A stretch of DNA of 64,000 nucleotides, taken from a virus. Location: positions 1 to 64,000 of the IMG/VR virus record IMGVR_UViG_3300026201_000006. One strand, given 5' to 3'. Positions within the stretch are counted from its first letter, which is position 1. Each line of letters opens with the position of its first letter. Of the stretch, positions 6,590-63,675 are shown one piece after another. Below the pieces are notes generated by a model, which did no database searches, had not been told where the DNA came from, and saw only the letters and a list, made by a program, of their open reading frames with translations. The translations under genes were made by a program, and so were the position numbers.

Positions 6590-6593
6590 TTAT

Positions 6594-6601
6594 TATAAAT
6601 A
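6594..6601 (+). promoter_or_regulatory. Late promoter TATAAATA
   Basis: An exact T4 late promoter sequence (recognised in T4 by gp55-RNA polymerase with gp33 and the gp45 clamp) lies just after the MazG stop. It would start transcription near 6607, ahead of the capsid-targeted cassette. The start point falls inside the hairpin at 6602-6626. Confidence 0.75.
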
Positions 6602-6630
6602 CCTTTATATCGAATTTATATAAGGGTTTT
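6602..6630 (+). promoter_or_regulatory. Hairpin that can hide the ribosome site of the cassette
   Basis: A nine-pair stem forms between 6602-6610 and 6618-6626 with a seven-base loop, followed by TTTT. The AAGGG ribosome site for the ATG at 6632 is in the 3' arm. Read-through RNA from upstream would carry the whole hairpin, while late RNA starting near 6607 would lack most of the 5' arm. T4 genes e and 49 use this arrangement to block early translation. It might also act as a weak terminator. Confidence 0.6.
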
Positions 6631-6631
6631 A

Positions 6632-7288
6632 ATGCAGTCACTTAAAGGTTATCTATCAGAGGGAAGAAATGATCCCTCAATATTCCACGCAATATTTATG
6701 GCTGGCTCTCCAGGAGCAGGTAAGACTAAAGTTTCAGAACTGTTAGTATTAAATACTTTAGGCTATAAAGAAATTAATTCAGATACTCAATTTGAAAAGT
6801 ATATGAAAGATGCTTTTTTAGATTTAGAATTCAATAAAAAACAAGAATTTCAAAGAAATGTAACAAGAGCTGTTGCAAAAAGACATGTTGCTTCTAAACA
6901 AAGACATGCTGAGATTGGCAGATTAGGCCTTCTTATTGATGGAACTGCTAAAAACGTTGGTAAAATTGGAACTCAAAAGAAAGAGCTAGAAGCAAAGGGT
7001 TATGAAGTTGCTATGATATATGTTTCAACAGATGTATATTCTGCAATTGCAGCTGATAAACAAAGAACAAGAAGTCTTGGTGCCGATATGGTAACGTCAA
7101 TGCATAAAAGTGTTACAAAAAATAAAGATAGATACAAAAAAATGTTTGGTAAATTGTTTTTCGAAGTAGATAATTCAAACTGGGAAAAGACGCCGTCTAT
7201 TACACGTCCATTATATGGTAAAATAGCTAAATGGTCTAAGACTATGCCAAAGAATAAAATTGCACAAGAATGGTTAAAGAATAACTAA
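6632..7288 (+). CDS. P-loop kinase with capsid-targeting N terminus
   Basis: The 218-residue protein has a Walker A loop GSPGAGKT at residues 25-32 and an INSD strand typical of zeta-toxin and polynucleotide-kinase-like P-loop kinases. The lid region contains KQRTRSLG. It probably phosphorylates a nucleotide, nucleic-acid end or small molecule; the substrate is unknown. The first ten residues, MQSLKGYLSE, look like a T4 capsid-targeting sequence ending in a gp21 site (Leu-x-Glu). The mature enzyme would therefore begin at Gly11 inside the head. It is the first gene after the late promoter at 6594. Confidence 0.8.
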   Translation: MQSLKGYLSEGRNDPSIFHAIFMAGSPGAGKTKVSELLVLNTLGYKEINSDTQFEKYMKDAFLDLEFNKKQEFQRNVTRAVAKRHVASKQRHAEIGRLGLLIDGTAKNVGKIGTQKKELEAKGYEVAMIYVSTDVYSAIAADKQRTRSLGADMVTSMHKSVTKNKDRYKKMFGKLFFEVDNSNWEKTPSITRPLYGKIAKWSKTMPKNKIAQEWLKNN

Positions 7289-7527
7289 TGAAAACACTAA
7301 AACAGATTTTAGAAGGTCCAGGCAGTAAAAGTGAACCATGGGAAGATGGTTATAAGAGAAGAGTCGTAAAGACCACAAAGCCTGAGCATAAAGAAAAAGG
7401 ATATAATTGGAGAATTAAAGGTAAAGACCGTAATGAGATCTCCATTAAACTATACAAGTCTAAGCCAGATTTTGCTGAGTTTAAAAAGCAAATGAAGAGA
7501 GTGGCAGGACACGAGTTCGGAGGATAA
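7288..7527 (+). CDS. Small basic protein with capsid-targeting N terminus
   Basis: A 79-residue protein starting MKTLKQILE, with Ile7-Leu8-Glu9 forming a gp21-type cleavage site. The remaining 70 residues are very basic (KRRVVKTTKPEHKEKGY and a Lys-rich C terminus) and resemble in character the T4 internal proteins that accompany DNA in the head. The start overlaps the preceding stop by one base. The function after cleavage is unknown; DNA condensation or an injected host inhibitor are both possible. Confidence 0.75.
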   Translation: MKTLKQILEGPGSKSEPWEDGYKRRVVKTTKPEHKEKGYNWRIKGKDRNEISIKLYKSKPDFAEFKKQMKRVAGHEFGG

Positions 7528-7872
7528 ATGAAAACATATAAACAAGTAGAAGCAATAGATCACATATGTGAGCAACAATACCAAGATGAGGTAATAAGCG
7601 AAGCAGAGTATCAAGGTAAAACCGTTTCATTAAATAACCCTCAACGATCACCTAAAGGTTCCGCATCTAAGTTTCACGTATATGTAAAGAACAGTAAAGG
7701 TAATGTTGTAAAGGTTAACTTCGGTGATCCTAATATGGAAATTAAAAGAGATGATCCTGCAAGACGTAAAGCATTTCGTGCAAGACATAATTGTGATCAG
7801 AAAAAAGATAAAACTAAAGCGGGATATTGGTCATGTTATCAATGGAGAGCTGGAGCAAAGGTAGATAATTAA
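7528..7872 (+). CDS. Conserved basic phage protein with capsid-targeting N terminus
   Basis: The 114-residue protein begins MKTYKQVEAIDHICE and contains two candidate gp21 sites (Ile13-Cys-Glu15 and Ile23-Ser-Glu25). The mature part is basic and holds VNFGDPNMEIKRDD followed by RARHNCD and KAGYWSC, a pattern I recognise as conserved in proteins of many large phages but of unknown function. The paired Cys could bind metal. It starts one base after the previous stop and its own stop overlaps the next ATG. Confidence 0.75.
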   Translation: MKTYKQVEAIDHICEQQYQDEVISEAEYQGKTVSLNNPQRSPKGSASKFHVYVKNSKGNVVKVNFGDPNMEIKRDDPARRKAFRARHNCDQKKDKTKAGYWSCYQWRAGAKVDN

Positions 7873-9737
7873 TGCTTTCATTTAAAAACAAACAACTAGA
7901 AGAAAAAGCCCCTCCTGGCATGAAAGCCCTAGTAAAGGGATTTAAAGCCGATGGTATGGATGATGATAAGGCATTTGCTCTTGCTTGGTCTATATACAAT
8001 AAGAAGAAAAACGAAGAGAAAACTCCAGCACCACAAGAAGATGATTCAGGTTGGGTAGAAGAGTATATACAAGAAGCATATACTATTGCTTATACGAAGC
8101 CAGCAGATATTAAACATATAGGATACTCTGATGAGCAACTAGCTGATATAGCTGATCTATATAAACAATTAAAAAATAAGCATGATACTCCTTTAATCTT
8201 TGATACTGGTAAAAACAAAGTAGTAAAGGTTCACACAGACTTGCAAGGATCAGTTGATATAGATGGTAGAGCAACTACATACAAGTTTGGCAAAGGATCT
8301 GTTGGTAAAGGAAAAGCTGTTGACTTACAAGATTTTGGTATTGCTACTGCCACTGACTTCTTAGAATTTTTTCAGTGTGTTGGCTTATTCATAGGAGTAC
8401 CTTTAGACGAGAGTAACTTTAAGAAATCATTAGAGCAATTATTTGTTGGCGGTGATTTTAAAATAAGAGATTACATTAAAGACTGGAAAAAGTTTGTTGC
8501 GTATGTTGATGCAGATAAATCATTAGGTAAAGATGTAATCATGTTAGTGAATGGTTCATATTACTACAGAAAAAAAGAAATTGGATTCACTAAACCATAT
8601 GTAATTTGGACTGGTATTACAGAGTACTATGCTGCTTTAAAAAATAAAGAAGGTATTGAAGGTAGTGTAAAACCAAATACAGCGGACTGTGTTCTTATTA
8701 ACGGTACACCCAATGAATTATATGCTGCATTAAAAAGTAAAAAACCAATTATAACAGATGATGATACTGGTCTAATAAAATGTGATGGTGTTGAATGGTA
8801 TCAAATATCTTTAAAGAAAGCTGATGGACAAGCAAAGCTTGGTAAAATCACAACGCTTATGAAAGGTAAGTATCAACCCGATGTAGATAATATGGATCTT
8901 GCAAAGGTGCGTGACCAATTTCCTGAACTTGCTGAACAATATTTGCAAGAAGGATTCTTTGGTGATACTATAGATAAGATAAGAGATTATGGTAAAGATG
9001 CAGTAAAAAGATTTCAACAAGCAGCAAAAAATGTTCTTAATTTCGGTAAACAATTATTTAAAAAGATATCTATGCTAGGAAAGAAATATGAAAAGAGTAC
9101 TGAAAAAGAACTTGAGCGTCTTACAAAGCGTAGTAAATATCTAACAGAGATGAGTCAAGGCGCAATGCTTAATGCTATTGTAAAAGATAAGAGATTAAAT
9201 TCATCATACGCAAAAACAATTGAGAACTACCGTAAGAAAATCGATACAAAGAGTAATGATGTTGTAGAGATACGTGTAGAGAAACAGAATAATTTACAAA
9301 TTAATGAGACAACAGTAAACTTCTTAGTAGGTAATGTTATATCATTTCAGCTTGTAAACGATATTATTAAAGATGTAAAGAAGAATGGCATTAATGTTAT
9401 TAATGATTTAAATCAAAGTATGGCTATGGGTGACACAAACCTTCCAGTTGTAAAGGTCTTTGGTAATCCTAATAAAGCAGATTATAAAGTTATTACAGTT
9501 GGTACAATTAAACAGGCTGCACCAAAGAGAGATGGTAAGCCGATTAGTGTTTTAAAAGTTGCTGTTCTGCCATTTAAACAATACTATGTAGTAAACATGT
9601 GGATCTTTGCAGAGACTGTTGATGATGTAGCTAAATACCATAAGATAGCATTTAAAAAGAGTGGAGCAAGTTCATTCAATTATAATATTGAAGGTACTGG
9701 AACTGTTCCAGAAAATAAAATAACGGAATTTCAATGA
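7872..9737 (+). CDS. Large conserved protein with capsid-targeting N terminus
   Basis: A 621-residue protein starting MLSFKNKQLEE, with Leu9-Glu-Glu11 as a possible gp21 site. Next comes a small helical unit (PPGMKALVKGFKADGMDDDK) of a type often seen in phage head proteins, and a second candidate site YIQE near residue 69. The middle is a mixed alpha/beta region, and residues 370-480 are strongly helical and basic. I do not recognise a catalytic motif. The position inside the capsid-targeted run suggests an internal or ejected head protein. Confidence is high that it is a gene and low for its function. Confidence 0.75.
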   Translation: MLSFKNKQLEEKAPPGMKALVKGFKADGMDDDKAFALAWSIYNKKKNEEKTPAPQEDDSGWVEEYIQEAYTIAYTKPADIKHIGYSDEQLADIADLYKQLKNKHDTPLIFDTGKNKVVKVHTDLQGSVDIDGRATTYKFGKGSVGKGKAVDLQDFGIATATDFLEFFQCVGLFIGVPLDESNFKKSLEQLFVGGDFKIRDYIKDWKKFVAYVDADKSLGKDVIMLVNGSYYYRKKEIGFTKPYVIWTGITEYYAALKNKEGIEGSVKPNTADCVLINGTPNELYAALKSKKPIITDDDTGLIKCDGVEWYQISLKKADGQAKLGKITTLMKGKYQPDVDNMDLAKVRDQFPELAEQYLQEGFFGDTIDKIRDYGKDAVKRFQQAAKNVLNFGKQLFKKISMLGKKYEKSTEKELERLTKRSKYLTEMSQGAMLNAIVKDKRLNSSYAKTIENYRKKIDTKSNDVVEIRVEKQNNLQINETTVNFLVGNVISFQLVNDIIKDVKKNGINVINDLNQSMAMGDTNLPVVKVFGNPNKADYKVITVGTIKQAAPKRDGKPISVLKVAVLPFKQYYVVNMWIFAETVDDVAKYHKIAFKKSGASSFNYNIEGTGTVPENKITEFQ

Positions 9738-10963
9738 AGTTTAAACAACACATAACAGAAGCAAAAAATACTCACATGACTCATATTGAGGACATGGTGA
9801 TTGACGGTGGAGTAAATGGAGCAAGGTCAGCTATCTTTGCATTAAGAGATTTAAGAGATATGTTGGCTGGTCATTCGAATGATACTAAAGCAGTCACAGT
9901 TAAATGGGATGGTGCACCGGCGGTATTTGCTGGTATTGATCCATCTGATGGTAAGTTCTTTGTAGCAAAGAAAGGAATATTTAATAAGAATCCTAAAGTA
10001 TATAAATCAGTAAAGGATGTAAAAGCTGATACATCTGGTGATTTATCAAAGAAGCTTATAGTAGCATTTCAAGAATTAAGTAAACTTGGTATAAAGAAAG
10101 GAGTCTACCAAGGTGACATTATGTTCACAAAACAAGACTTAAAGAAAGCAACAATTGATGGGAAGAAGTATGTAACCTTCCACCCAAATACTATAGTATA
10201 TGCAGTACCCGTTGAAGCAGCGCAAGAGATTATGAGAGCTAAAATTGGAGTAGTGTGGCATACTTATTACTCAGGCTCAACCTTTGAAACAATGAATGCT
10301 TCATTTGGTGTATCCACAGCAGCGTTTAAAAATGTCCGAACGGTATGGCAGAAGTCCGCCAACCTACCAGACATATCTGGTTTAGCCACATTAACCAAAA
10401 AGGAAACAGATGAAATTACCAAACATATCTCGAACGCAGGAAAGCTCTTTCAAAAAATCGCCGCTACGACGCTTAATGACGTGGCTTCAAATAAAGATAT
10501 TAACCTCTTTATCAATACCTTTCGCAATACGAAGGTTAGAGCGCAAGAGGAAGTTACAGACTCCAAAGCCTACGTTGAAGAACTTATCGGATGGATCGAG
10601 AATCGTTATAACACCGAAAAAGAAAGGCTTAAAAGCGATGCTGGGAAGGATAGGAAGGAACAAGCGAAGCTGGCAGCCTTAGAATTCTTCTCAGATGAGA
10701 ACAAAAGTGGTCTTATAAGTATGCTTGATATGCAAAACGAGCTAGTATCTGCTAAGATAAAGCTATTAAAGCATCTGGACAGCATGGATAGTATAAATAC
10801 ATTTGTAAAGACTAAAGACGGGTTTAGAGTAACAGGCGCCGAGGGATATGTTGCTATAGATCATTTAACAAACGGCGCAGTTAAAATTGTGGATAGAATG
10901 GAATTTTCTTACAACAACTTTAGCAAAGACATAATCAAGGGATGGGAGTCCGAATCACGATGA
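9734..10963 (+). CDS. Nucleotidyltransferase/ligase-like protein with capsid-targeting N terminus
   Basis: The 409-residue protein starts MKFKQHITE (gp21-like site Ile7-Thr-Glu9). It contains VTVKWDGAPAVFAG with KWDG at residues 57-60, which matches motif I (KxDG) of covalent nucleotidyltransferases, where Lys57 would carry AMP. The segments AKKGIF (78-83) and VYQGDIMF (124-131) lie where ligases have further active-site strands. It belongs to a family found in T4-like marine phages (I recall it as a DUF). The ligase reading is inference from the motif; a full set of motifs IV and V is not obvious. Confidence 0.7.
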   Translation: MKFKQHITEAKNTHMTHIEDMVIDGGVNGARSAIFALRDLRDMLAGHSNDTKAVTVKWDGAPAVFAGIDPSDGKFFVAKKGIFNKNPKVYKSVKDVKADTSGDLSKKLIVAFQELSKLGIKKGVYQGDIMFTKQDLKKATIDGKKYVTFHPNTIVYAVPVEAAQEIMRAKIGVVWHTYYSGSTFETMNASFGVSTAAFKNVRTVWQKSANLPDISGLATLTKKETDEITKHISNAGKLFQKIAATTLNDVASNKDINLFINTFRNTKVRAQEEVTDSKAYVEELIGWIENRYNTEKERLKSDAGKDRKEQAKLAALEFFSDENKSGLISMLDMQNELVSAKIKLLKHLDSMDSINTFVKTKDGFRVTGAEGYVAIDHLTNGAVKIVDRMEFSYNNFSKDIIKGWESESR

Positions 10964-11502
10964 AATTAATAGATAGATTAGTACAATCATATACACGCAT
11001 AGATGAAGCAAGAGTAAAAGATAATCATAGGTGGAATGCCAATGATGAATTAGCTACTATGAATTTCATTTATAAAGACTTTAAAAAAGAATTAGGCAGA
11101 GATCCAGGTAAACCATATATGGATGATGACGAATTAGTAGTAGGTGATAAAACCGTATTAAGAATGAAAGACAATACATCCGTTGCTGATATGAAAAAAG
11201 CAGTACAAAGCTGGATCGCAAAGAATGTAAAACCTGCTGCTGGTGAAGTAAAGGTTGGTAAATTTAATGCCAAACTTCCTACAGAAATGAAAGGTGTTCT
11301 TGGCAATAAAGCTGTAAAGCTTGATAACCCAAGAGTAATAATTAAAACAGATGTTAACTCAGCTAAAGAAATTCAAGCAGCTGTGAAAGGTACTGGTAAA
11401 TTCCGTATGATGAAACGTAAAGATCACGTTGCTGTATACCTTGATTTTGCTGATGGAGACCAGCTTAAAGCTGCAATGGCAAAGGTTAAAAAAATTAAGT
11501 AA
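10960..11502 (+). CDS. Hypothetical protein with capsid-targeting N terminus
   Basis: I start this at the ATGA overlap at 10960 (180 residues), which has GGGAG upstream, rather than the in-frame ATG 18 bases earlier. The N terminus MKLIDRLVQSYTRIDE ends in Ile14-Asp-Glu16, a gp21-type site. The rest is Lys-rich and likely alpha/beta, with a C-terminal unit (VIIKTDVNSAKEIQAAV) that could be a small ferredoxin-like fold. No known function. Confidence 0.75.
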   Translation: MKLIDRLVQSYTRIDEARVKDNHRWNANDELATMNFIYKDFKKELGRDPGKPYMDDDELVVGDKTVLRMKDNTSVADMKKAVQSWIAKNVKPAAGEVKVGKFNAKLPTEMKGVLGNKAVKLDNPRVIIKTDVNSAKEIQAAVKGTGKFRMMKRKDHVAVYLDFADGDQLKAAMAKVKKIK

Positions 11503-12326
11503 TGTCACTGCATAGTTTTAAAGAACACTATCTTGAAGAGGCTGCGGCTGAAACAGTTACCCTAAACTGGGGTAGGTTTAATCCTCCAACTATTGGTCAT
11601 GAAAAACTTTTAGATGTAACTAAATCTAAAGGCACAGGTGTTCATAGAATTTATGCAACACAATCAGAAGATAACAAAAAGAATCCCCTAGATTGGAAGA
11701 CTAAAATAAAGTACATGCGTAAGGTGTTTCCTAAACACGCACGTTCTATTCTTATGGATAAAAAAGCTAAAACATTATTTGATGTTCTAACTATAGCATA
11801 CGATGATGGCTTTAAGAATTTAGAATTAGTTGTTGGTTCGGATAGAGTACCTGAATTTGAGAAGCTTGTAAATAAGTATAATGGTGTAAAGGGTAGACAT
11901 GGTTTCTATAACTTTGCATCTATTAAAATTATGAACGCTGGCGAAAGAGATCCTGATGCTGAAGGTGCAGAAGGTATGTCAGCCTCGAAGATGAGAGCTG
12001 CGGCAGCCGACAACGATCTTATATCATTTACTAAAGGTCTACCAAGAAGATTTAAAGATGCTGAAGCATTAATGAATGATGTACGTAAAGGCATGGGTTT
12101 AAAAGAAGAAAAATCTTTTAGACAAGATATAAAATTAAAGAAGGCATCAAATCTTCGTGAGAAGTTTGTTGCTGGTAAATTATTTAATGTGAATGATCCT
12201 GTAAAATCAAATGACGGTCAAGAAGGAGTTATAGATACATTAGGAGCTAACCACGTTAAAGTAAAATTGAAAGGAGATGGACAGTTTAAAACTTTCTGGC
12301 TCCAAGATTTATGTTTAAATAATTAG
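11502..12326 (+). CDS. Cytidylyltransferase/NMN adenylyltransferase-like enzyme, capsid-targeted
   Basis: The first 13 residues, MSLHSFKEHYLEE, form a capsid-targeting-like leader with a Leu-Glu-Glu site. The catalytic domain follows directly, with the nucleotide-binding motif GRFNPPTIGH at 24-33, VVGSDRV near 111 and the second signature GMSASKMR at 158-165. This is the HIGH-superfamily pattern of NMNAT and cytidylyltransferases. Such enzymes join a nucleotide to a phosphate-bearing small molecule; NAD synthesis is one option. A C-terminal tail of about 60 residues resembles a small KOW/SH3-like barrel (FNVNDPVKSNDGQEGVID). It is the last of the seven leader-bearing genes. Confidence 0.85.
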   Translation: MSLHSFKEHYLEEAAAETVTLNWGRFNPPTIGHEKLLDVTKSKGTGVHRIYATQSEDNKKNPLDWKTKIKYMRKVFPKHARSILMDKKAKTLFDVLTIAYDDGFKNLELVVGSDRVPEFEKLVNKYNGVKGRHGFYNFASIKIMNAGERDPDAEGAEGMSASKMRAAAADNDLISFTKGLPRRFKDAEALMNDVRKGMGLKEEKSFRQDIKLKKASNLREKFVAGKLFNVNDPVKSNDGQEGVIDTLGANHVKVKLKGDGQFKTFWLQDLCLNN

Positions 12327-16487: not shown

Positions 16488-16508
16488 TAACATTCATTCA
16501 ATAATGAA

Positions 16509-16741
16509 GTGAGCTAGATAACGACGTAAAGGTAAAAGTAGGAGCACTTAAGACGTGGGTTCAATTCCCACCTCCTCCACCAAATAATATTCAGGTAGTA
16601 TTATTTAATGGGGGAGACAAGGCATCGATTAGGTAGCAGAGCCGCTTGAGACTCGTCAGTCAAGAAAGACTTTAAAATCAAATTTAATCGGCAATCAGAA
16701 CGATTATTTACTAGCTGCTTGATAGCTAGTTGAGGTTTTCT
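16509..16741 (+). ncRNA. ssrA: Circularly permuted (two-piece) tmRNA
   Basis: tmRNA rescues stalled ribosomes and tags the unfinished protein for proteolysis. The acceptor piece comes first. It has the T-arm GTGGG/CCCAC (16555-16571) with loop TTCAATT, then acceptor strand 16572-16578, A79 and CCA (16580-16582). The coding piece starts at 16610 with GGGGGAG, which pairs with 16572-16578. Its third pair is G-U, the alanine identity element. A D-like segment (GGCATCGATTAGG) and a reading frame GGC AAT CAG AAC GAT TAT TTA CTA GCT GCT TGA (16690-16722) follow, giving tag (A)GNQNDYLLAA. CTAGCT/AGCTAG forms helix 5 around the stop. The intervening 16583-16605 is a hairpin, likely removed. Outer boundaries are approximate. 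Confidence 0.92.
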
Positions 16742-16780
16742 CCGGAGTTCCTTATCACCAAATACTCCGGTCTTTCTTTT
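16742..16780 (+). terminator. Terminator after the tmRNA
   Basis: CCGGAGT (16742-16748) pairs exactly with ACTCCGG (16764-16770), with a 15-base loop, and is followed by TCTTTCTTTT. This is a standard factor-independent terminator and sets the 3' limit of the tmRNA transcript. Confidence 0.8.
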
Positions 16781-16794
16781 ATATACATAATACC

Positions 16795-17106
16795 ATGAGC
16801 ATAAGTTTAACACCGTTAGCTACTGAAAAATTGACTTTAGCACTACAAGATCGAAAGCTTAGGGTATTAGTAAAAACTACAGGCTGTTCAGGCCTAGCCT
16901 ACCATTTAGAATTTGCAGATAAAATAGAAGCAGATGACTATGCATTTTATCCAAATGGTATTCCAGTTGTTGTAGATCCTAAGTCTCTTGCATATGTTGA
17001 CGGATGTGAGATAGACTATAAGTACGAAGGTCTAAATGAAGGATTTGAATTTTATAACCCTAAAGAAAAAGCCAGATGTGGCTGTGGAGAATCATTTACA
17101 GTATGA
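16795..17106 (+). CDS. HesB/IscA-like iron-sulfur carrier
   Basis: The 103-residue protein matches A-type Fe-S carriers (IscA/SufA/ErpA/HesB) in length and in the three cluster-binding cysteines: Cys31 in TTGCSGLAY, and Cys95 and Cys97 in RCGCGESF. These proteins deliver Fe-S clusters to target enzymes. In this phage, clients could be the radical SAM protein encoded at 62239 or host enzymes under infection stress. There is no clear ribosome site before the ATG, which follows the tmRNA terminator. The 3' end overlaps the next gene (ATGA). Confidence 0.88.
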   Translation: MSISLTPLATEKLTLALQDRKLRVLVKTTGCSGLAYHLEFADKIEADDYAFYPNGIPVVVDPKSLAYVDGCEIDYKYEGLNEGFEFYNPKEKARCGCGESFTV

Positions 17107-32538: not shown

Positions 32539-33717
32539 ATGAGCGATCCAGCAGAAGATCACAGACACCAACGTGGTAGGGAAATAGCTGATAAAGTTAG
32601 AGGATTTTCTTTCCAATCTTGGAAATACCCATCAACAGTTGGTAGTGATACCTATCAAGATGATATAAGCTTTAACAGTCATGAAACTAGTGAGTATGCC
32701 AAAAGGCGTATGGATAATACTTCACAATTAACTAATGAACCATACATGATGTTTGAGTTTATGAAAGTTGATGGTACCCCGAATAAAAATCAAAATAGCT
32801 TTGCACAACAAGGTAAAAAAGGATTTGATTGGACTGCAGGATTTCTTAAAAGTAATGCATCTGCAGTAATAGGAAGGGCAGCTGATATCTTGGACCAAAA
32901 TAATACTATCGGTCGTGGAACAAACAGAGAAAATGCAATTAGGGAATCTGCTGGTGGTGAAAATTCCGCAGCAGTAAATAACAGTATTACTAATGGCAAA
33001 GCATTCGAAGCTTCAAAAGGATTAATCGAAGCTTATACAACTCCAGTAAGAAGAACATATACAGGTTCTATTTGTTTATATATGCCAACTGGAATTGAAA
33101 TATCTGATGGTATAACATATAACGAGGACACAAGACAATTTGCAGCAGGCTTAAATGAAATGGTAAGCGGTGGCGGTTCAAGGGCTTTTAATAATAAGGC
33201 AGTGTTGGCTAGTACACAAGCAATTTCAGTATATGGTGCAGGTGCGGGTAAAATAGCTGGAGGCGGTATGTTAGGTGCTTTAGCTGGTTATGGTGTTGGT
33301 GATATTATCGCAACTGAAATGCAAAGATCTACCGGCGCACTATTAAATAAAAACGAATTTGCAGCATACGCTGGTACACCATTAAGATCATTTACTTTTA
33401 ATTGGACTATACTACCTGATTCAGAACAAGAATCAGATCAAGCAGCGGGTCTTATTAAATTCTTTAGAGAATCTATGCACGCTACAAAAAATGATCAGGT
33501 TACAATTACTGTTCCTGACCATTGTGTAGTATCATTCCACGGTTCAAAAGACATGATTCAATTACCTCCTGTTGTTGTAGAGAATGTTGGTGTTACATAT
33601 AACCCAAATAATTCTTCATTCTTTAGAAAAAATAATTCACCAGTAGAAATTAATTTAACAGTAACACTTAAAGAACTTAATCCATTATACAAAGATGATG
33701 TCAAGGCAGGGTATTAA
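32539..33717 (+). CDS. 48: Baseplate tail-tube cap gp48
   Basis: gp48 caps the baseplate hub and, with gp54, starts tail tube growth. The 392-residue protein (T4 364) has an N-terminal extension rich in Gly/Asn, TYTGSICLYMPTGIEISDG in the middle, a Gly-rich loop (GGGMLGALAGYGVGD), and a C-terminal tube domain. That domain includes LRSFTFNWTILPDSEQESD and a NVGVTYNPN strand, as in gp48 relatives. It heads the plus-strand baseplate operon. Confidence 0.82.
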   Translation: MSDPAEDHRHQRGREIADKVRGFSFQSWKYPSTVGSDTYQDDISFNSHETSEYAKRRMDNTSQLTNEPYMMFEFMKVDGTPNKNQNSFAQQGKKGFDWTAGFLKSNASAVIGRAADILDQNNTIGRGTNRENAIRESAGGENSAAVNNSITNGKAFEASKGLIEAYTTPVRRTYTGSICLYMPTGIEISDGITYNEDTRQFAAGLNEMVSGGGSRAFNNKAVLASTQAISVYGAGAGKIAGGGMLGALAGYGVGDIIATEMQRSTGALLNKNEFAAYAGTPLRSFTFNWTILPDSEQESDQAAGLIKFFRESMHATKNDQVTITVPDHCVVSFHGSKDMIQLPPVVVENVGVTYNPNNSSFFRKNNSPVEINLTVTLKELNPLYKDDVKAGY

Positions 33718-62238: not shown

Positions 62239-63675
62239 ATGAATTATCCAAGTGAAACTTTTTGTGCTCTTCCATGGGTACACCTCTCAACAAGACCAAA
62301 CGGACACATGCGCGTATGTTGTACAGCTAACGCTTCCGGTGTTCAGAATCCAGACTCTCAAGATAAGATAGAATCAGACATTGGCATTCTAAAGAATGAT
62401 GATGGTATGCCTTCTAATCTTGCCAATACATCATTAGAATCAGCATGGAATAATGCTTATATGAGAGGTACACGTAAAGCAATGATGCGTGGTGAGAAAC
62501 CTAATAGTTGTATTAAGTGTTACAAAGAGGAAGATGCAGGACATAGATCTAAGAGGATGTGGGAGACCACAAAATGGATTAATAAATTAGGTTTAGAGTC
62601 AGTATTAGAAGGTTACGATCCAGAGACTGGTTCAGTACCACCACAAATCCGATACGTGGATCTTCGCCTTGGGTCTAAGTGTCAGTTAGCCTGTGTTATG
62701 TGTTCACCGAACGATTCTTCGGGTTGGATTGTAGAACATAAAAAAATACATCCTAAATTAAAGAATGAAAATTTAGAAAAAACAATGCGTTGGGAGAAGG
62801 AGACAGGTAAGTTAGCCTTCGTAGGTGCAAGTTATGCATGGCATAAAAAGAATCCTATGTTCTTTGATGAACTATACGAACAAATACCTAAACTAAAACA
62901 ATTGTATTGGGCAGGTGGTGAACCACTTGTAATGAAAGAACATTATGAATTATTAGAGCAAATCATTGAAGATGGTTATGCTAGCGAGATTGAAGTGAGA
63001 TATAACTCAAACGGAATGGAGTGGGACGACAACTTGTTCGATTTATGGAAGCATTTTAAGGAAGTTATATTTCATTTCTCTATTGATGATATGGGAGATA
63101 GGTTGCATTATATAAGATATCCTGCAACATTCGACCATCTCACTGAAAAAATGAGGGAGTTAGATAACTATCCTCATGGAAACCTTAGGCTTACAACAGC
63201 TTATACTATACAACTACTCAACATATGGTCTATACCAGATTTCGTTAAATGGAAATTAACAAATAAATGGAAGCTGTTAAATACATGGCCTCAGGGTGGA
63301 GGTATGATTGATAACCATCTGGCATATTGGCCGCCTCAATTAAATTGTAAAGCGTTGCCATTAGATTTTAAGAAGAAGGTTACTGAAAAGTATGAGGCTT
63401 TCTATCCATGGTTAGAAGAGAACTGGGAATTATCTGGTGCACCAACAAAAGAAGCTTTCATGGAAAACAATTATACTATTGATAGACTTAAAGGTATTGC
63501 CTCATTCATGAATGCAGAAGATTGGTCTGTACGATTACCTGAGACTGCTGAATGGTGTTATCGTGTTGCAGAAGAAAGAGGACAAGATTTTAATGCAATC
63601 TTCCCAGAACTATCTTGGCTTCAAGACTATCATAAACCAAACAATGACTTTCCGCTAGTAATTAATACTGTTTAA
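62239..63675 (+). CDS. Radical SAM protein with extra N-terminal cysteines
   Basis: The 478-residue protein has the radical SAM cluster CxxxCxxC at Cys148, 152 and 155 (GSKCQLACVMCSPND) and the SAM-binding GGEPLV motif after it. Additional cysteines at 9, 27, 28, 91 and 94 (CALPW, RVCC, CIKC) suggest a second cluster, as in SPASM or twitch proteins, but placed at the N terminus. These enzymes modify peptides or small molecules by radical chemistry. Its place just after fibre genes suggests a fibre or surface substrate. It is expressed late, probably leaderless. Confidence 0.88.
   Translation: MNYPSETFCALPWVHLSTRPNGHMRVCCTANASGVQNPDSQDKIESDIGILKNDDGMPSNLANTSLESAWNNAYMRGTRKAMMRGEKPNSCIKCYKEEDAGHRSKRMWETTKWINKLGLESVLEGYDPETGSVPPQIRYVDLRLGSKCQLACVMCSPNDSSGWIVEHKKIHPKLKNENLEKTMRWEKETGKLAFVGASYAWHKKNPMFFDELYEQIPKLKQLYWAGGEPLVMKEHYELLEQIIEDGYASEIEVRYNSNGMEWDDNLFDLWKHFKEVIFHFSIDDMGDRLHYIRYPATFDHLTEKMRELDNYPHGNLRLTTAYTIQLLNIWSIPDFVKWKLTNKWKLLNTWPQGGGMIDNHLAYWPPQLNCKALPLDFKKKVTEKYEAFYPWLEENWELSGAPTKEAFMENNYTIDRLKGIASFMNAEDWSVRLPETAEWCYRVAEERGQDFNAIFPELSWLQDYHKPNNDFPLVINTV

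Follow-up and report, generated by a model that had tools for sequence, protein, structure and literature searches.

Among described phage systems, the internal proteins of phage T4 (IPI–IPIII and Alt) carry a leader of ~10 residues with hydrophobic targeting positions and a (L/I)-x-E site at which gp21 cuts (PMC9026906). Mutagenesis of IPIII assigned targeting to residues 4 and 7 and processing to residues 8 and 10, and IPI acts in anti-restriction (PMC9026906). The cut motif of phiKZ differs, being S/A-x-E (PMC9026906). The Dar/Hdf proteins of bacteriophage P1 and the ejection proteins of giant phages are, in the available parts of the sources, also head-associated and delivered with the DNA, and those of giant phages are matured by a prohead protease (PMC12810830, PMC7411985). 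In cyanophages, the virion proteome of S-CREM2 includes non-structural proteins (PMC10665884), virion detection of the NMNAT gp91 of S-SCSM1 is discussed in PMC9602691, and a protein kinase was detected in S-CRM01 virions, as cited in PMC10665884. Both proteomic papers note that non-structural proteins could have been carried over during purification; in their available parts, they report detection and speculate on entry, and propose no targeting leader, cut site or late operon (PMC10665884, PMC9602691). For capsid targeting in cyanophages, the open-access literature gave only the T4 review, and an earlier description elsewhere is possible.

The DNA analysed here, the window, is a 64,000-nucleotide stretch of a 76,062-base virus record, whose source is, by gene content, a T4-like marine bacteriophage. 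Seven ORFs, P1–P7, lie head to tail at 6632–12326 among replication and nucleotide-metabolism genes. Read from the translations, the upstream neighbour is a MazG-like gene, and downstream come three further small genes and then a ribonucleotide reductase gene. The sole gap ahead of the run, 6590–6631, contains TATAAATA at 6594. The preliminary description had reported seven consecutive ORFs with T4-like leaders, and all seven are found with the leaders as quoted. The features are as follows, with a slash marking each predicted cut.

6594..6601, + strand: TATAAATA, T4-type late promoter element, exact match, upstream of P1
6632..7288, + strand: P1, leader MQSLKGYLSE/G and predicted Zeta-toxin/polynucleotide-kinase-like P-loop kinase (PF06414)
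7288..7527, + strand: P2, leader MKTLKQILE/G and small protein; I-x-E kept in MKTLKQIKE
7528..7872, + strand: P3, start MKTYKQVEAIDHICE, second site ISE25/AEYQG, HVA1-like protein (phrog_7595)
7872..9737, + strand: P4, leader MLSFKNKQLEE/KAPPGM, internal site EEYIQE68/AYTIAY (E68 conserved), then large protein
9734..10963, + strand: P5, leader MKFKQHITE/AKNTH and DUF6267 protein (PF19782) with invariant KWDGAP
10960..11502, + strand: P6, leader MKLIDRLVQSYTRIDE/ARVKDN and body; leaders swapped among homologues
11502..12326, + strand: P7, leader MSLHSFKEHYLEE/AAAETV and predicted NMNAT/cytidylyltransferase-like enzyme (phrog_395, PF01467)

The P6 frame also has a longer version, which opens at 10942. 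Like the T4 internal proteins, the cassette combines such leaders with an apparent late promoter, and relatives encode a gp21 homologue. However, the T4 internal proteins are small and basic, whereas the cargo here includes enzyme-like proteins of other families and is encoded in a seven-gene operon next to nrdA. We know of no relationship between the cassette proteins and either Dar/Hdf of bacteriophage P1 or the giant-phage ejection proteins. A nucleotide search of phages gave almost no matches, and none of the PADLOC defence families was found among P1–P7. Elsewhere, the window encodes a permuted tmRNA at 16490–16813 (RF04321, 86.9 bits; ARAGORN tag GNQNDYLLAA). A run of proteins follows the tail region (window 62239–63675 and L001 378–9430), and all three with hits match Radical SAM.

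The preliminary description had built its case on the (L/I)-x-E leaders. With E at positions 9–17, this motif occurs in 7/7 cassette products versus 11/79 other ORFs of the contig (Fisher p = 6e-6), and to this extent the leaders stand out as described. However, the bare motif is present in ~15% of the ORFs of six related genomes, a chance level at which it proves little for a single gene, so that the real evidence is comparative. The strict motif, i.e., the T4-spaced version of the leader motif, occurs in three of the seven (P1, P5 and P7) versus 3/79 other ORFs (p = 0.006). The same three fit T4 hydrophobic positions 4 and 7, whereas P2, P3, P4 and P6 fit partly or not. When a near-identical strict motif is applied to the T4 genome, 7 of 256 ORFs match, among them IPIII, a second protein with MKTYQEFIAE, which we take to be IPII, and a 427-aa protein opening MAKINELLRE, presumably gp24. 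A 54-aa T4 ORF (AF158101, 18966–19130) opens MKTFKEFIKE and closely resembles a capsid-targeting sequence. A leader profile built exclusively from T4 IPIII and the leaders of virion-detected cyanophage proteins scores the cassette above the remaining ORFs in the contig, G001, G002 and G005 (p = 0.006–0.016), with low scores for P2 and P6. Enrichment by this profile was not significant in C48C1 or HTVC008M; automated ORF starts were misplaced for P5 in G001 and for P5 and P7 in C48C1, which pulled those genes down in the test.

Conservation among homologues is clearest for P5. In an alignment of 40 homologues, down to ~34% identity, both the E at the cut and the L/I two residues earlier are present in 40/40, while the residue between them is free and takes many values; H, Y, F or L predominate at E-3, and F or L at E-6. 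This pattern, including the free middle residue, matches the specificity of T4 gp21 and the residue rule established with IPIII. In P1, E10-G11 is invariant (26/26), and P7 homologues keep [F/Y/L/H/C][L/I/V/F]-x-E in 33 of 37 cases. Conservation of the leader sites in homologues, which the preliminary description had named as a check, is thus borne out by the invariant cut-site E of the P1 and P5 alignments. For P2, I-x-E is kept in the homologue leader MKTLKQIKE. The first site of P3 is not conserved, whereas the second, ISE25, is kept in C48C1, HTVC008M and others; in P4, the second site, E68, is present in 13/13 homologues, and in the homologue L057 the core follows immediately on a plain leader, MDNFVTFLSE/. 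The leaders of P3 and P4 stand as originally written, but the main cuts are probably farther downstream than the sites first quoted, at E25 (ISE/AEYQG) in P3 and at E68 (IQE/AYTIAY) in P4. The leaders of HTVC008M are shortened, and its P7 homologue is without the cut site.

The leaders also behave as modules. P6 homologues place unrelated leaders before related bodies, i.e., MKLIDRLVQSYTRIDE/ARVKDN, MKTLKTHINE/ARPKDN, MKTVREIRALVE/ARVKDN and MWPDLLESTLYE/ARVKDN, and E/AR is kept throughout these swaps, while similar leaders also front other bodies, e.g., MKLIDKLVKEFTSINE/RVSGRD. The P5 proteins of the cyanophages S-PM2, P-HM2, S-CAM9 and S-CRM01 are leaderless, opening with MATQNKH, MSKNTH, MAKNTH or MAKDGKNVH, so that these orthologues begin at the predicted cut. 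Across 268 P5 loci, 182 encode a leader with its cut site, and in 80 the protein begins at the cut, the latter count being biased towards leaderless forms because the pattern of the third and last scan contained MAKNTHLE. Since P5 is retained in leaderless form by many cyanophages, packaging is not essential to it. The P3 homologue of Roseobacter phage CRP-901 is likewise leaderless and starts with MATYKGKSVSLNKP at the predicted cut, compared with ISE/AEYQGKTVSLNNP here, and the leaderless P2 relative L071 starts with MEGSETW near the cut. The P4 slot in L233, L229, L012, L231, L008 and L004 encodes proteins whose N-termini are similar but whose bodies differ, with matches to phrog_2496 or phrog_1462 in some cases. 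Contrary to the earlier view that an adjacent series is unusual, runs of leadered genes occur elsewhere too: S-CRM01 has five consecutive ones, g127–g131, of which g130 is presumably the protein kinase detected in its virions.

Upstream of P1, TATAAATA lies 33–43 bp away in 28/28 homologous loci examined, against a chance estimate of ~0.8% per gene from the density expected by shuffling, although these loci are related and thus not independent. Further copies in the right-hand region of the window precede ORFs at 32539, 36404, 39885, 47892, 51582 and 55396, which are taken, from position and order, to be tail and baseplate genes. The cassette is thus apparently expressed late together with the structural genes, as judged from these promoter elements. 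TATAAATA was not found upstream of the cassette in HTVC008M. As an alternative late-promoter word, CTAAATA was rejected, its frequency being no more than chance. A homologue of the late sigma factor gp55 is encoded by close relatives, and a gp21-type protease with conserved blocks is found in the close relatives G001, G002 and G005. A gp21 homologue elsewhere in the phage had been a further check named by the preliminary description; among relatives with a head module, the closest ones encode it, but a search of the contig, which is an incomplete 76 kb fragment, gave no match.

Evidence from virions comes from related cyanophages. The S-CREM2 proteins detected in virions include several with the same leader class, namely the SAM hydrolase gp6 (MKDFDSFLEE), gp13 (MKDLHSFLTE), the kinase gp14 (VKRFDAFLTE) and the cytidylyltransferase gp154 (MKNFSSFLTE), the last being a P7 homologue; gp13 is supported by one peptide and gp154 by three (PMC10665884). 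The strict motif has six matches among the 219 S-CREM2 ORFs, and these same four are virion-detected; with annotated structural proteins excluded, the association with virion detection has p = 0.004, a value that is not fully independent because the motif was written after some S-CREM2 leaders had been seen. The virion-detected gp12 (L144:7704–10313), annotated Cas9, has a leader-like ...LRFASFMAE; its search against Pfam gave no match at E <= 0.001, which makes the Cas9 name doubtful. We also note that gp6 (L144:3837–5081), virion-detected, is an S-AdoMet lyase (PF23780) and a possible injected anti-restriction enzyme, and that virion-detected gp156 (L143:11013–11726) matches nucleotidyltransferase PF01909 just above the cut-off.

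In S-SCSM1, the block gp89–97, between mazG and primase/nrdA, is syntenic with the P1–P7 cassette, and seven of its nine genes (gp89, 90, 91, 92, 93, 95 and 97) encode annotated virion proteins, including the NMNAT gp91 with leader MKSFLQFLKE/A. The leaderless P9 homologues of the same blocks, S-CREM2 gp159 and S-SCSM1 gp96, are absent from the virion protein lists. The S-SCSM1 virion protein gp93 (L241:31627–31836) has a leader-like C-terminus, RTFKEFLEYIE. A relationship of P4 or P5 to the virion protein S-SCSM1 gp90 was rejected, the profile comparisons not being significant. The virion NMNAT/cytidylyltransferase, kinase and SAM hydrolase of S-CREM2, S-SCSM1 and S-CRM01 thus resemble the present cassette in including P7 homologues and in sharing its leader class (PMC10665884, PMC9602691). 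The earlier reading of a head-packaged cassette is supported, since homologues, NMNAT-like relatives of P7 among them, have been reported as virion proteins, several with the same leader (PMC10665884, PMC9602691).

The P-loop kinase and the NMNAT-like enzyme that the preliminary description had recognised in the cassette are both supported by profile matches. P1 is predicted to be a Zeta/PNK/PSTK-like kinase, with 45 bits to PF06414 (cut-off 22.3), the Walker A motif GSPGAGKT and structure matches to 1gvn, 3adb and 1ly1. P7 has NMNAT-type motifs and is a predicted NMNAT/cytidylyltransferase-like enzyme, matching phrog_395 (E = 3.6e-64) and PF01467 (21.5 bits, cut-off 21), with a TxGH-type motif in 37/37 homologues and (M/L)SAS..R in 35/37. 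P5 matches PF19782 (DUF6267; E = 8.5e-98), and its KxDG motif, put forward earlier as nucleotidyltransferase-like, is an invariant KWDG among homologues; the nucleotidyltransferase part of that proposal fared less well. The AlphaFold model of P5 (pLDDT 75, moderate confidence) matched no PDB fold at E <= 0.001; in BFVD it found its own family, with ligases only at E ~0.1 and TM 0.17. An RNA/DNA ligase-like nucleotidyltransferase fold is thus without fold support in either database, and KWDG is left as a motif only. P4 had no Pfam or PHROG match, and its poor model (pLDDT 65) had no structural match.

Taken together, we consider it likely that the P1–P7 operon encodes late, capsid-targeted, protease-trimmed and co-injected enzymes and other proteins of the T4 type. 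Support for packaging varies along the operon, P1, P5 and P7 being well supported and P2–P4 and P6 less so. It is quite conceivable, if somewhat short of an even chance, that only some of the products (P1, P5, P7 and perhaps P4 and P6) are capsid-targeted, while the motif in P2 and P3, as small late proteins, is due to chance or is a relic. The restriction of the strict motif to P1, P5 and P7, the low profile scores of P2 and P6 and the unconserved first site of P3 all point this way, whereas the conserved downstream sites in P3 and P4, the survival of E/AR in P6 through leader swaps and the one apparent late operon shared by all seven argue for the full set.

Other explanations concern what the leaders and the proteins do. 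Scaffold proteins are among the further substrates of gp21 in T4 (PMC9026906). The strict motif, moreover, picks a T4 head protein gene, presumably gp24, so the cassette products might be prohead core or scaffold accessories that are trimmed by gp21 and work in head assembly rather than as injected effectors. We regard this as unlikely, since P1 and P7 retain kinase and adenylyltransferase signatures, the content of the P4 slot varies among relatives and leaderless orthologues exist. It is more doubtful still that the leaders serve oligomerisation, membrane binding or translation start, with the enzymes acting in the producing cell and their virion homologues being contaminants. The carry-over allowed by the authors of both proteomic papers and the many leaderless P5 proteins of cyanophages would fit such a role; against it stand the gp21 signature common to different protein families, the enrichment of the strict motif among virion-detected non-structural proteins of S-CREM2, the absence of the leaderless neighbours gp159 and gp96 from the virion lists and the cut site retained in swapped leaders.

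In the packaging model, a gp55-type late promoter would switch the operon on alongside the structural genes, and the N-terminal leaders, serving as capsid-targeting sequences, would attach the products to the prohead core. A gp21-type prohead protease would then cut after (L/I)-x-E, releasing the mature proteins inside the head, from where they would pass into the next host together with the DNA and act before any phage gene expression. The sequence comparisons support the leader, the cut site, its modularity and the late promoter, together with the protease and the late sigma factor in close relatives. Homologues are reported from virions by published mass spectrometry, and we infer packaging of exactly these proteins, cuts at these residues, injection and the host roles of P1, P5 and P7. 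By analogy with T4 IPI and Alt, the proteins would most likely serve to take over the host at once or to counter its defences, with nucleotide, NAD or RNA-end chemistry as the target. Osterman et al. reportedly described phage NAD+ reconstitution pathways in 2024, as cited in PMC13292451, and the similar NMNAT-type chemistry suggests a possible role for P7.

What would be new here is the application of T4-type capsid targeting, itself already known, to a conserved late enzyme operon. T4-like leaders, together with related proteins in purified virions, make it probable that this virus delivers preformed enzymes into its host along with the DNA. The model offers a mechanism for the presence of NMNAT-like enzymes, kinases and a SAM hydrolase in cyanophage virions, which is unexplained in the available parts of the two proteomic papers (PMC10665884, PMC9602691). 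The sequence rule that it supplies could be used to look for further injected proteins encoded by widespread marine phages, and mature N-termini are predicted to the residue. We lean towards the view that a late operon for injected proteins is conserved between gp41/mazG and nrdA in marine T4-like phages, and that these phages switch the same enzyme between cell-made and packaged/injected forms through gain, loss or exchange of a ten-residue capsid-targeting leader. P5 orthologues with and without a leader constitute a natural experiment on the worth of packaging an enzyme.
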